64,000 nt of DNA, taken from assembly GCA_900473685.1 (NCBI GenBank), contig UCNE01000023.1, positions 124,001 through 188,000 of the forward strand, written 5' to 3'. Within the stretch, counting starts at the first letter, position 1. Every line of letters begins with the position of its first letter. Source of the stretch: Hyphomicrobiales bacterium. GTDB lineage: Bacteria; Pseudomonadota; Alphaproteobacteria; Rhizobiales; Rhizobiaceae. Of the stretch, positions 18,038-21,319 are shown piece by piece. Made by a program: the position numbers and the translations under genes. A model generated the notes under the pieces. That model was not told the origin of the DNA, made no database searches, and was given only the letters and a program-made list of their open reading frames with translations.

Positions 18038-19795
18038 TCAGTTGGTCTGTTTGACGCCCAGCGCCATGGTATCGACGAGGACACGATACACGTCGCTCTG
18101 CTCCATATAGCCCTTGAAGCCTTCCGAGCCGGGGCCGACAGCCTGCAGCACGACGTCGTCGACGGCGTGGACGCCCGAATCGCCTTCCTTCGGAATATTG
18201 CCGGGTACGAAGACTGCGCCGGGCACATCCTTGTAGGCCTCGTTGGCCACATATTCCTTCTTTTCGTTCTGGATCGCCGGAACGAACGGACCATCCAGCT
18301 TCGGGCGGAAGGTCTCGTAATGATCCGGGCCGTTGTTGGCGTTCAGGAACAGGCGGCGGGTCACATCCACCTTATCCGGATAACCGTCATTGTTTTCGTC
18401 GGTGTAGTTCGGGAAGCCGGCGCTAGCGTAGGTACCGACCTTTTCGCGCATTTCGGTGCCTGGCTTTTCGTCATCGACGGTGCCGATGATCGAAACGCCG
18501 TGTGTGTGGTCGCCGGTGACGACGATCAGCGTGTCCGGGTTTTTGGCTGCGAATTCGCGGGCAACGCCGATTGCCTTGTCGAACTCGATCGTATCGACGA
18601 CGGCACGATCCCAATCAAGCGGATGGGACATCTTGTCGACATTGGCAGCTTCAACCATCAGGAAGAAGCCTTCGGGGTTCTTCGACAGGCTGTCGAGCGC
18701 GACCTTGGTCATCTCGACGAGGCCTGGCTGGTTCGGAAACTTCTCGACTGTGCCCTTCTTGAGGAATTCGCGATCGAGCGTGGTGTCCATGTTGCCGGTG
18801 TGGAAGATGCCGAGGATCTTGCCGGTATTGGTACCGGCCGCAGCCGCCAGTTCGGTCTTGTCGGTTGCGAGCGTATAGCCGGCGTCCTGGAACAACTTGA
18901 CATAATCCTTGTCGTCCTTGCGCTTCGAGCCTGGCGTGGCCTGCGGCAGGAAGTAAGCCGAGCCACCGCCAAGCAGAACATCCGGCTTCACGTCGAACAG
19001 CATGCCGTTGATCTCTGCCTTGTCGCCACGCTTGCGGGTATGGGCGACGACGGCTGCCGGTGTCGCATCCTGCAGTTCAGCGGTCGAAATGATGCCGATC
19101 GACTTCTTGGTCTGGCGGCGGATGGCTTCCGCAATGTTTTCAACCTTCGGATCATCGAACGTGTCCGGCGTGCGGTCGGCATAGACGCCGATGGCGTTCA
19201 CGGCCGTCTTGTGACCGGTCATATAGGCGGACATGGTGTTGGCCGAGTCGGTGGCGACCGCATCGGTTGCCGAGGTGCCGATAAAGGCGGCCGGGGGAAC
19301 GTCGTCGAGGTTCAGGCGGCCATTCGCCTTGCCCTCTGTCATACCCTTGGACATAATGCGGGCGGCGGTGCGATGGGCGACCGAGAAACCGTCAGCGATA
19401 AGGAAGATGACGTTCTTGGCCTTGGCGGTTTCGCCGGTATTGTAGACATCCCAGGTGACAGACTTCGATTCCGAGCCGGCAGTTACTTCGATCGTATAGG
19501 CGCCCTCAGTCGGCAGGACGAGGTCGCGGGCGATCAATGCCGAGCCCAAAACCTTGTCTTCCTTGCCCTTTTCTTCGGCAACGAATTCGGCTTCCTTGCC
19601 GAGAACCGTCTTGTAATCCTGCCCGTTGACAGTGATCTTGACGTCTTCCGGCTTGACGACCGACTTGAATTCGACCTTGAAATCGAATGGCGAGCCGGCG
19701 AGGATCGTTGCACGATCGAGCGGATAAACGGTAGTGGCCTGTGCGGCCCCAGCGAGGAATGTCGTGGCGGCAAGCGCCGACAGAAGCATACGCAT
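18038..19795 (-). CDS. Alkaline phosphatase (PhoA-type fold)
   Basis: This is a secreted Zn/Mg phosphomonoesterase of 585 residues. A signal peptide (MLLSALAATTFLAGAAQA) is followed by an Ig-like N-terminal domain to about residue 110. The catalytic domain then begins with NVIFLIADGFS (metal aspartate). The nucleophile is the serine of ATDSANTMSAYMTGHKT, and the zinc histidines lie in MVEAANVDKMSH and GDHTHGV. The ATG at 19795 follows AAGGGGG; the open frame continues much further upstream without homologous sequence. A Pho box lies 57 bp upstream, so PhoB control is expected. Scavenging phosphate in the periplasm during starvation is the likely role. Confidence 0.92.
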   Translation of the reverse strand: MRMLLSALAATTFLAGAAQATTVYPLDRATILAGSPFDFKVEFKSVVKPEDVKITVNGQDYKTVLGKEAEFVAEEKGKEDKVLGSALIARDLVLPTEGAYTIEVTAGSESKSVTWDVYNTGETAKAKNVIFLIADGFSVAHRTAARIMSKGMTEGKANGRLNLDDVPPAAFIGTSATDAVATDSANTMSAYMTGHKTAVNAIGVYADRTPDTFDDPKVENIAEAIRRQTKKSIGIISTAELQDATPAAVVAHTRKRGDKAEINGMLFDVKPDVLLGGGSAYFLPQATPGSKRKDDKDYVKLFQDAGYTLATDKTELAAAAGTNTGKILGIFHTGNMDTTLDREFLKKGTVEKFPNQPGLVEMTKVALDSLSKNPEGFFLMVEAANVDKMSHPLDWDRAVVDTIEFDKAIGVAREFAAKNPDTLIVVTGDHTHGVSIIGTVDDEKPGTEMREKVGTYASAGFPNYTDENNDGYPDKVDVTRRLFLNANNGPDHYETFRPKLDGPFVPAIQNEKKEYVANEAYKDVPGAVFVPGNIPKEGDSGVHAVDDVVLQAVGPGSEGFKGYMEQSDVYRVLVDTMALGVKQTN

Positions 19796-19869: not shown

Positions 19870-19983
19870 TTGCGTAACGTTTTGACAGCAGGGTGGCGGA
19901 CCCGTCTTCATGACGCGTATTCTCAGCTTTCTGTTGACTCTGCGCCAAAACCGCGTAAGAGCAGCAGCGGAAAAGGACCCACC

Positions 19984-20103
19984 ATGCACCGTTTTGGTTA
20001 CGCCATCGCTGCGCTGATCGCCCCGGCATTCGCTGCCGGGCGGGTTCGTTCTTTCTCGATATCTTCCAAAACAATGGCCAAAACGACGACGAAAACCGTC
20101 TGA
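19984..20103 (+). CDS. Probable regulatory leader peptide of asd (Lys/Thr/Met codons)
   Basis: This 39-codon ORF has a good ribosome site (AAAAGGA, six bases before the ATG) and a weak promoter-like TTGACT-N16-TAAGAG just upstream at 19934. Its last codons read Lys-Thr-Met-Ala-Lys-Thr-Thr-Thr-Lys-Thr-Val-stop (20068-20103): five Thr, three Lys and one Met in eleven codons. Lysine, threonine and methionine are the end products of the aspartate pathway in which Asd acts, and E. coli thrL is a known precedent for such a peptide. Strong hairpins follow before asd. The rest of the peptide is hydrophobic (YAIAALIAPAFAAG). An alternative nine-codon peptide starts at the internal ATG at 20074. The peptide itself probably has no other function. 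Confidence 0.62.
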   Translation: MHRFGYAIAALIAPAFAAGRVRSFSISSKTMAKTTTKTV

Positions 20104-20196
20104 CGTCTCTGGCCACCGCTCTCTCCCCGGCACGGCCGGGGACCTGAAACCCGCGCCTTTGGCCGGCGGGTTTCCCCCAAAGCCCCGCGGAGAGAC
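20022..20196 (+). promoter_or_regulatory. Candidate attenuator structures in the asd leader
   Basis: Three perfect hairpins surround the leader codons: CCCGGCA/TGCCGGG (20022-20040), CCCCGGC-ACG-GCCGGGG (20125-20141) and GAAACCCGC/GCGGGTTTC (20146-20174). The second arm of the first can also pair with the first arm of the second, so the folds can be mutually exclusive. GGAGAGAC (20189-20196), just before the asd ribosome site, is complementary to GTCTCT at 20105 and CTCTCTCC at 20119, right after the leader stop. A ribosome stalled on the Lys/Thr codons would cover GTCTCT and could free the asd start. The last hairpin lacks a long T-tract, so control could be translational. Confidence 0.5.
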
Positions 20197-20214
20197 AGAA
20201 AGAGAGCAAAGACA

Positions 20215-21249
20215 ATGGGTTTCAAGATTGCTATTGCCGGCGCGACCGGAAACGTCGGCCGCGAAATGCTGAACATTCTCGAAGAGCGCGGCTTCCCCGC
20301 GGACGAAGTCGTGGCGCTGGCCTCGGCCCGCAGCCAGGGCACCGAGGTTTCGTTCGGCGACAAGACGCTGAAGGTCAAGAACCTCGAGAACTACGATTTT
20401 TCCGACACCGATATTTGCCTGATGTCGGCCGGCGGCGCCGTATCGCTGAAGTGGTCGCCGAAGATCGGCGCACAGGGCTGCGTCGTCATCGATAACTCGT
20501 CGGCCTGGCGCTACGATCAGGACGTGCCGTTGATCGTGCCGGAAGTAAACCCGGACGCCATCACCCAGTTCACCAAGCGCAACATCATTGCCAACCCGAA
20601 TTGCTCGACCGCCCAGCTCGTTGTAGCGCTGAAGCCGCTGCATGACTTTGCCAAGATCAAGCGCGTCGTCGTTTCGACCTATCAGTCGGTTTCCGGTGCC
20701 GGCAAGGAAGGCATGGACGAACTGTTCAACCAGACCCGCGCCGTCTTCGTCGCCGATCCGGTCGAATCGAAGAAGTTCACCAAGCGCATCGCCTTCAACG
20801 TCATTCCGCACATCGATAGCTTCATGGAAGATGGCTATACGAAGGAAGAATGGAAGGTTCTGGCCGAAACCAAGAAGATGCTCGACCCGAAGATCAAGGT
20901 GACCTGCACCGCCGTGCGCGTTCCGGTCTTCATCGGCCATTCGGAAGCCGTCAACATCGAATTCGAAAACGAGATCAGCGCCGACCAGGCCCGCGACATC
21001 CTGCGCGAAGCTCCAGGCTGCATCGTCATCGACAAGCACGAGAACGGCGGCTACATCACGCCTTACGAATCGGCTGGCGAAGACGCCACCTATATTTCGC
21101 GCATCCGCGAAGACGCGACTGTCGAGAACGGCCTGAATATCTGGGTCGTTTCCGACAACCTGCGCAAGGGTGCCGCCTTGAACGCCATCCAGATTGCCGA
21201 ACTTCTCGTCAATCGCGGCCTGATCAAGGCGAAGAAACAGGCCGCCTGA
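20215..21249 (+). CDS. asd: Aspartate-semialdehyde dehydrogenase
   Basis: Asd reduces aspartyl phosphate to aspartate semialdehyde with NADPH, the branch point to lysine/diaminopimelate, threonine and methionine. The 344-residue product has the N-terminal nucleotide-binding FKIAIAGATGNVGREML, the catalytic Cys130 in ANPNCSTAQLVVAL, the substrate segment STYQSVSGAGKEGMDEL and the catalytic His242 in FIGHSEAVNIE. The length is typical of the USG-1/Asd family. The ribosome site is only moderate (AGAGAG eight bases before the ATG) and could be masked by upstream sequence. It is preceded by the probable leader peptide and followed by a strong terminator, so it is monocistronic. Confidence 0.97.
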   Translation: MGFKIAIAGATGNVGREMLNILEERGFPADEVVALASARSQGTEVSFGDKTLKVKNLENYDFSDTDICLMSAGGAVSLKWSPKIGAQGCVVIDNSSAWRYDQDVPLIVPEVNPDAITQFTKRNIIANPNCSTAQLVVALKPLHDFAKIKRVVVSTYQSVSGAGKEGMDELFNQTRAVFVADPVESKKFTKRIAFNVIPHIDSFMEDGYTKEEWKVLAETKKMLDPKIKVTCTAVRVPVFIGHSEAVNIEFENEISADQARDILREAPGCIVIDKHENGGYITPYESAGEDATYISRIREDATVENGLNIWVVSDNLRKGAALNAIQIAELLVNRGLIKAKKQAA

Positions 21250-21276: not shown

Positions 21277-21319
21277 AAAGCCTCGCATGATCCGTCAAAC
21301 GGGATGCGGGGCTTCTTTG
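21277..21319 (+). terminator. Rho-independent terminator of asd
   Basis: AAGCCTCGCAT...ATGCGGGGCTT forms an 11-bp stem with one G-T pair and is followed by CTTTGT. It starts about 27 bp after the asd stop codon. Confidence 0.82.

Follow-up and report, generated by a model that had tools for sequence, protein, structure and literature searches.

A Lys/Thr-ending leader ORF and covarying RNA helices upstream of asd suggest leader-peptide attenuation in Rhizobiaceae and related families

Comparison of the region upstream of asd, the aspartate-semialdehyde dehydrogenase gene, reveals a short ORF ending in Lys and Thr codons and conserved across many families, a promoter-like site 5' of it, and three predicted helices with covarying arms (s2:s4, s3:s4, and s3:s5) between its stop codon and asd. 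We propose, with a probability of about 0.6, that this region is a leader-peptide attenuator that would match asd to the availability of charged Lys- and Thr-tRNA, with a pseudoknot in the stalled state leaving the asd ribosome site free and translation initiation as the probable output. The product of asd is the last precursor that lysine, threonine, methionine, isoleucine, and diaminopimelate have in common. The analysis started from a 64,000-nt stretch of a Rhizobiaceae genome (contig UCNE01000023.1), here called the window, and its features are listed in Table 1.

Table 1. Features of the asd leader region, in window coordinates.
Feature	Position	Strand	Basis or remark
Promoter-like pair TTGACT 19934-19939, TAAGAG 19956-19961	19934..19961	+	Conservation; -10 hexamer by eye
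Leader ribosome site AAAAGGA	19971..19977	+	
Leader ORF, 39 codons + TGA	19984..20103	+	5' of asd
Hairpin H1, CCCGGCA/TGCCGGG, within leader ORF	20022..20040	+	Perfect 7 bp inverted repeat (arms 20022-20028/20034-20040); possible pause hairpin
Control codons K-T-M-A-K-T-T-T-K-T-V	20068..20100	+	Residue enrichment, 45 representatives
P1, control-codon region with post-stop segment; outer pairs TGGCCA 20075-20080/TGGCCA 20110-20115	20075..20115	+	MFE; weak order-wide
s2, GTCTCTGGCC	20105..20114	+	Pairs with s4 (S1) or joins P1
s3, TCTCTCC	20120..20126	+	Complementary to GGAGAGA 20189-20195 (s5; helix S2); overlapping arm 20124-20131 pairs with s4 (P2)
s4, GGCCGGGGAC	20134..20143	+	With s2 (S1, GTCTCTGGCC/GGCCGGGGAC, 10 bp), or as GCCGGGGA with P2 arm 20124-20131 (P2: perfect 8 bp inverted repeat, 20124-20131/20135-20142)
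P3, variable hairpin between s4 and s5	20146..20174	+	Perfect 9 bp inverted repeat (arms 20146-20154/20166-20174); no U-run after
s5, GGAGAGA	20189..20195	+	3' arm of long-range S2, directly 5' of asd ribosome site
asd ribosome site AGAAAGAGAGC	20197..20207	+	Contains AGAGAGC (20201-20207), complementary to GCTCTCT 20118-20124
asd, aspartate-semialdehyde dehydrogenase	20215..21249	+	TIGR01296, 471.4 bits, cut-off 324.2

The leader ORF and its Lys/Thr tail

The initial annotation of the window described a 39-codon ORF with an AAAAGGA ribosome site and the tail KTMAKTTTKTV, as well as three perfect hairpins. The ORF is present as claimed, and the hairpins were all located as inverted repeats of 7, 8, and 9 bp. 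Among 94 relatives, 89 have a leader ATG 33 to 44 codons 5' of the stop together with an SD-like motif. The upstream neighbor, on the minus strand at 18038-19795, matches alkaline phosphatase with 154 bits, short of the 540 bits required for NF007810, and is divergent, so that the leader sits between two divergent genes. On the other side, 3' of asd, a GC-rich inverted repeat followed by TTCTTT (21280-21318) was identified by eye as a likely terminator.

To follow the leader among relatives, it was scored as present when at least 6 of the last 14 codons encode Lys or Thr (K+T ≥6). All 80 named relatives carry a Lys/Thr-rich leader before asd, although these are the best 80 of at least 587 confirmed stretches and the set is therefore tilted to near relatives. 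For the order as a whole, asd was detected in 193 of 199 genomes, and 60 upstream regions were chosen by hand to spread over 36 families. The leader was scored in 38 of these 60 genomes and not scored in 22; at the stricter K+T ≥8 it is found in 28. The conservation check called for at the outset thus shows the Lys/Thr tail maintained well beyond rhizobia, in 23 of the 36 families. Three families, f18 (0/4), f35 (0/2), and f50 (0/2), have no Lys/Thr leader scored before asd, which may reflect loss or another kind of control. Outside the order, 4 of 40 genomes have one (L216, L236, L240, and L249); these 40 come from a class sample in which asd was found in 78 of 86 genomes, better matches being used first.

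Besides the named relatives and the order genomes, asd regions were drawn from 30 loci obtained by DNA search of the window's own genome and 60 relatives. A K+T ≥6 tail is present in 173 of 198 asd upstream regions, a redundant set that includes near-duplicates (L111 to L140 repeat genomes of L141 to L160 and others). The same richness is reached in 14 of 3960 dinucleotide shuffles and at 2 of 1242 other real anchor positions, one of which is this very leader seen from another anchor. Two loci need separate mention: L145, with 138 nt upstream, was unscored and counted as a miss although it shows MRTMIKKTTTI, and L172, whose asd start is placed too far downstream, lies outside the representatives used below.

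The N-terminal part of the leader peptide varies among genera, while the tail is maintained. In 24 leaders compared to that of the window, synonymous changes make up 36% of codon changes (27% among random single changes), indicating weak constraint on the peptide body. In 25 of 29 Rhizobiaceae-group loci, the H1 region within the body forms a stronger hairpin than the mean of its shuffles (mean z, -1.31). H1 is possibly an RNA polymerase pause hairpin, and it may explain the recurring PA..AG of the peptide. A CCGGC...GCCGG hairpin is retained in the leader body across the Rhizobiaceae group with bases altered, as in L107 and L020.

Residue composition was analyzed in 45 representatives, selected by an alignment score below 0.72 per base in the post-stop region. 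Thr makes up 47.2% of the last 12 codons versus 11.2% of the leader body, and Lys makes up 19.1% versus 3.2%. Neither Met (2.0% in the tail versus 4.3% in the body) nor Ile (2.0% versus 3.7%) is enriched. Hence, the Lys/Thr/Met codon run first described holds for Lys and Thr, whereas Met is neither enriched nor conserved, and we have dropped it as a candidate sensed amino acid. The position of the window's Met, x in T-x-AKTTT, is occupied by K in 39 cases, T in 32, M in 13, and A in 1 (redundant set).

Codon usage in the tail differs from that of asd. Tail Lys codons are AAA in 338 cases and AAG in 54, whereas the first 300 asd codons have 126 AAA and 2611 AAG (redundant set of 135 loci); we draw no conclusion on tRNA charging from this AAA bias. 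Tail Thr favors ACG (428, versus 272 ACC), and asd favors ACC. A Thr-to-Ile replacement in the tail (AKTTIKTV) occurs in 7 of 94 Rhizobiaceae-group loci (L025, L033, L044, L046, L050, L053, and L056), mostly Agrobacterium records, several with a TTG leader start. In the genome of the window the codon-run pattern occurs once. There, no Lys/Thr leader is found before hom, the aspartokinase gene, or the best dapA match (K+T, 3/14).

A transcription start 3' of the leader had been named as the finding that would count against its role. Within 75 nt before the leader ATG, however, 105 of 109 loci (redundant set) have TTGAC, TTGGA, or TTGAA, and in 84 of these 105 the box lies 50 to 53 nt before the ATG; the chance level is 303 of 1600 random 75-mers from the same loci. 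A sigma-70 consensus scan of the window returned no sigma-70-like site, and the promoter-like pair therefore rests on conservation. This near-fixed box supports, short of proof, a transcription start upstream of the leader.

Covarying helices between the leader stop and asd

Pairing between segments was analyzed in 42 of the 45 representatives, L063, L158, and L167 being dropped for an insertion before asd. Insertions between the s5 arm and the asd start were seen in L063, L078, L158, and L167. Two controls were used, a swap of partners between species and a shuffle of each sequence's own 3' arm. The long-range helix S2 (s3:s5) is the best-supported helix, with z scores of -4.45 for partner swap and -7.4 for shuffle. 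It is followed by P2 (s3:s4; -3.76 and -4.3) and S1 (s2:s4; -3.12 and -3.2), while the P3 region gives -2.57 and -3.6. Pairing of the control codons with s2 (P1) is weak (-2.65 and -1.6). Of two pairings run as controls, codons with s4 and codons with s5, the former reaches -1.53 and -1.6. Neither pairing of the control codons with s5 (-0.09 and -1.2) nor that of s2 with the asd ribosome site (-1.59 and -1.2) is significant in these 42. The latter was considered as an OFF helix, as it can be drawn by eye in L143, L146, and L148, and was rejected on the overall result. The windows were narrowed between successive contiguous-helix tests, so the tests are not blind with respect to position.

The initial annotation had suggested that a pyrimidine arm just after the leader stop can pair with the segment before the asd ribosome site. 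Its GTCTCT/AGAGAC pairing is readable in the window, and across the 42 representatives the arm and the segment beside the ribosome site behave as a covarying helix. Compensatory changes in the arms, which it had advised looking for, can be read directly: CCCTCACC/GGTGAGGG in L065 corresponds to CCCTCTCC/GGAGAGGG in L077 for S2, and CGTCCC/GGGACG in L064 corresponds to CATCCC/GGGATG in L068 for S1, the latter two both Roseibium records. More distant arms are still complementary, TGCTTCCC/GGGAAGCG in L072 and CTGCCC/GGGCAG in L196. A same-genus S2 comparison, L152 with L156, revealed a shifted register in place of a clean compensatory change and was set aside. Duplex energies of long segments discriminated poorly, with 494 of 20000 permutations equally good, and the contiguous-helix tests were used instead. 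RNAalifold, applied to MAFFT alignments and to a 13-sequence alignment, yielded no pair counts because the arms are misaligned between families.

As for position, in 33 of 45 representatives the best helix between the post-stop region and the asd upstream region begins at stop+16 to stop+25 and has its other end 15 to 33 nt upstream of the asd ATG; in 12 it lies away from this usual place. In the window itself, the single best post-stop helix is not S2, which is the runner-up by 0.1 kcal/mol. S1 and P2 appear to be of near-equal energy there, since a 68-nt post-stop stretch has S1 with s3 in a 9-nt apical loop as its minimum free energy (MFE) fold and a 62-nt stretch prefers P2.

Because S1 encloses s3 and s3 pairs with s5, S1 and S2 cross; together they would make a pseudoknot, to which s3:s4 is the alternative. 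In the 42 representatives the median energy advantage of the crossing state is 6.0 kcal/mol with no pseudoknot penalty applied, and this state stays favorable in 17 after an assumed penalty of 7 kcal. With s3 and s5 held unpaired, s3 is enclosed in 38 of 42. In a 43-row folding set, which leaves out L158 and L167, s3 is cheaper to expose than the segment's average stretch in 32 cases, and S1 with s3 in the apical loop is the MFE fold in only 14.

Proposed control of asd and alternatives

These elements can be arranged into a switch, for which we infer the stalling, the assignment of ON and OFF states, and the level of control. On shortage of Lys- or Thr-tRNA, a ribosome would stall in the codon run and leave s2 free. 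Free s2 would pair with s4, keeping s3 in the hairpin loop, and the looped s3 would pair with s5 beside the asd ribosome site, forming a pseudoknot that leaves the site free, so that asd would be translated. With good supply, the ribosome would reach the stop and mask the start of s2, s3:s4 would form instead, and the asd start region would adopt a less accessible alternative fold. A ribosome at a stop codon covers about 10 nt. The direction, from starvation to ON, is taken from physiology.

On whether S2 frees or blocks the ribosome site, the evidence divides. The same leader and sensing could operate with S2 as an inhibitory helix that blocks the 30S subunit, in which case stalling would let s2:s4 trap s3, exclude S2, and open asd. 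S2 is, after all, the best-supported helix and lies near the ribosome site, which in L143 is covered by the best helix; the ribosome site of the window itself contains AGAGAGC, with which GCTCTCT can pair. Moreover, the S1 apical loop of L146 and L149 consists of exactly the 8 nt of s3, which would make S1 and S2 together sterically difficult and argues that they are mutually exclusive. Loops 3 to 7 nt longer than s3, enough for a pseudoknot, are found in L064, L066, L178, L181, L184, L192, and L197, however. In a search that stopped 12 nt before the ATG, the 3' arm selected for S2 runs into the ribosome site in just 1 of 42, and its end lies a median of 6 nt 5' of the site; the helix chosen automatically is probably not S2 in L073, L075, L080, L143, and L153 (gap ≥20 nt). 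Extending the search up to 6 nt from the ATG still left 15 nt or more between the end of the best helix and the ATG in 44 of 45, all but L143. Such a position is mild evidence that S2 lies beside the site without hiding it. Both arrangements fit; we slightly favor the active pseudoknot and consider an inhibitory S2 possible but unlikely.

Folding calculations were also made with the RNA under the ribosome masked. In pseudoknot-free folding of the 45 representatives, opening the asd ribosome site costs on average 6.06 to 6.35 kcal/mol when the ribosome reaches no farther than stop+3 and 5.15 to 5.55 kcal/mol when its edge is at stop+6 or farther; no stall-to-ON effect is seen in these calculations, and the trend is if anything opposite. 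The asd ribosome site is paired to nearly the same mean extent in the nested (fraction 0.42) and pseudoknot (0.38) states. In several families, s2 starts near or beyond the masking edge, at stop+9 in L064 and stop+11 in L149, for example. Such loci are a difficulty for both the active pseudoknot and the inhibitory S2.

Control might instead be exerted on transcription, with s3:s4 or P3 stopping RNA polymerase in a U-less or Rho-dependent manner and s2:s4 as the antiterminator, much as in thrL/trpL. The order of the elements and the competing s2:s4 and s3:s4 hairpins fit this classical scheme, and a short T-run follows P3 in some loci (five T in L076). Between leader and asd, however, a search for an intrinsic terminator, a hairpin followed by a U-run, showed that 1 of 45 representatives has a T-run of five or longer and 3 have a T-run of four, and terminator-like matches around the window leader number 2 against a shuffle mean of 1.0. 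The missing U-runs make a thrL-type terminator unlikely and point to translation initiation as the probable output. Transcriptional attenuation would also not explain why s3 covaries with the distant s5 next to the ribosome site, and we judge it improbable.

Finally, the leader could be an ordinary short gene or an ORF that arose by chance, with the RNA serving as a riboswitch or protein site that has nothing to do with the Lys/Thr codons. SAM-II riboswitches, known in Sinorhizobium meliloti, are described as likewise placing pseudoknots beside ribosome sites (PMC9373788). Against this, Lys/Thr richness is far above chance in 23 families while the remaining peptide is variable, loop sequences vary between families, and Rfam gives no match at gathering score, so that this explanation appears very improbable.

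Relation to known leaders

A possible leader role has precedent in Sinorhizobium. Hadjeras et al. (2023) describe SEP5, an sORF of S. meliloti, as a possible leader peptide with six Thr and three Lys codons near its 3' end, located in the 5'-UTR of a gene called aspartate dehydrogenase, translated according to Ribo-seq signal and Western blotting of a tagged fusion, and conserved only in Sinorhizobium (PMC10117765). Sinorhizobium tails in our set (KTTAKTTTKTV, e.g., L048 and L049) have exactly six T and three K. These codon counts suggest that SEP5 is the counterpart of the window leader ORF, and we infer that it lies before asd in S. meliloti. If so, the many-family tail contradicts Sinorhizobium-only conservation for the 3' end of SEP5. 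The passages on SEP5 give no RNA structure and confine it to Sinorhizobium, whereas the asd leader has its tail in many families. The notion that control of asd in rhizobia might be undescribed is thus only partly correct: a leader role had been suggested for Sinorhizobium (PMC10117765), and the breadth, the pairings, and the promoter-like site are added here.

The RNA part of the leader was not found in the open-licence literature searched. Term searches for asd found it neither among the alphaproteobacterial motifs of Corbino et al. (2005) (PMC1273637) nor in Naville and Gautheret (2010) (PMC2965389). Rfam 15 gave 0 matches at gathering score for the window and relatives L065, L069, L161, L172, L178, and L181; with a loose E-value, three sub-threshold matches were obtained.

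The nearest architecture is the LEU element before actinobacterial leuA, described by Seliverstov et al. (2005) (PMC1262725). As described there, it too has a leader ORF with a run of codons for the product, and a candidate pseudoknot together with an alternative hairpin, the ribosome site of the gene being included in the structure; the passages on LEU describe no conserved attenuator terminator (PMC1262725). In the asd leader, S1 and S2 covary and cross and might form at the same time. The base stem of LEU pairs leucine codons with the ribosome site (PMC1262725), whereas in the asd leader a post-stop arm pairs with a segment beside the site. Codon-mutation results for LEU are given as inconsistent with classical attenuation (PMC1262725). 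Phylum, gene, and amino acid all differ, with a leucine run before leuA and a Lys/Thr run before asd.

The thrL/trpL attenuators have a leader peptide with end-product codons and competing hairpins after it. The asd leader likewise is a short ORF with its own ribosome site before a biosynthetic gene, with end-product codons over-represented for Lys and Thr, though not Met or Ile, and competing hairpins downstream. Of the candidate mutually exclusive pairings, s2:s4 and s3:s4 are supported and codons:s2 is weak, and masked folding gives no clear switch. The asd leader differs in its gene, in having no terminator U-run, and in its long-range helix beside the ribosome site. A theory paper treats transcription attenuators of the thrL/trpL type (PMC1183508).

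The asd proposal also resembles repY-repZ of IncI plasmids, although kinship is not proposed. There, the pseudoknot adjoining the main gene's ribosome site is under the control of a leader ORF; that gene is a plasmid replication gene under antisense RNA, and its leader is not known to have an amino-acid codon run.

A broader reading is that two amino acids from the branch point of the aspartate pathway are sensed across much of the order, with ribosome position selecting between a nested fold and an active pseudoknot at the asd site, in an independent, translational, and terminator-free alphaproteobacterial counterpart of LEU. We offer this tentatively and at somewhat less than even odds. The covarying arms provide ready compensatory mutations, making the mechanism directly testable. 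If the proposal is true, one RNA element unmatched in Rfam would control the asd step across much of the order, including plant symbionts, and would join dual Lys/Thr sensing to an architecture held in common with the poorly understood LEU element.
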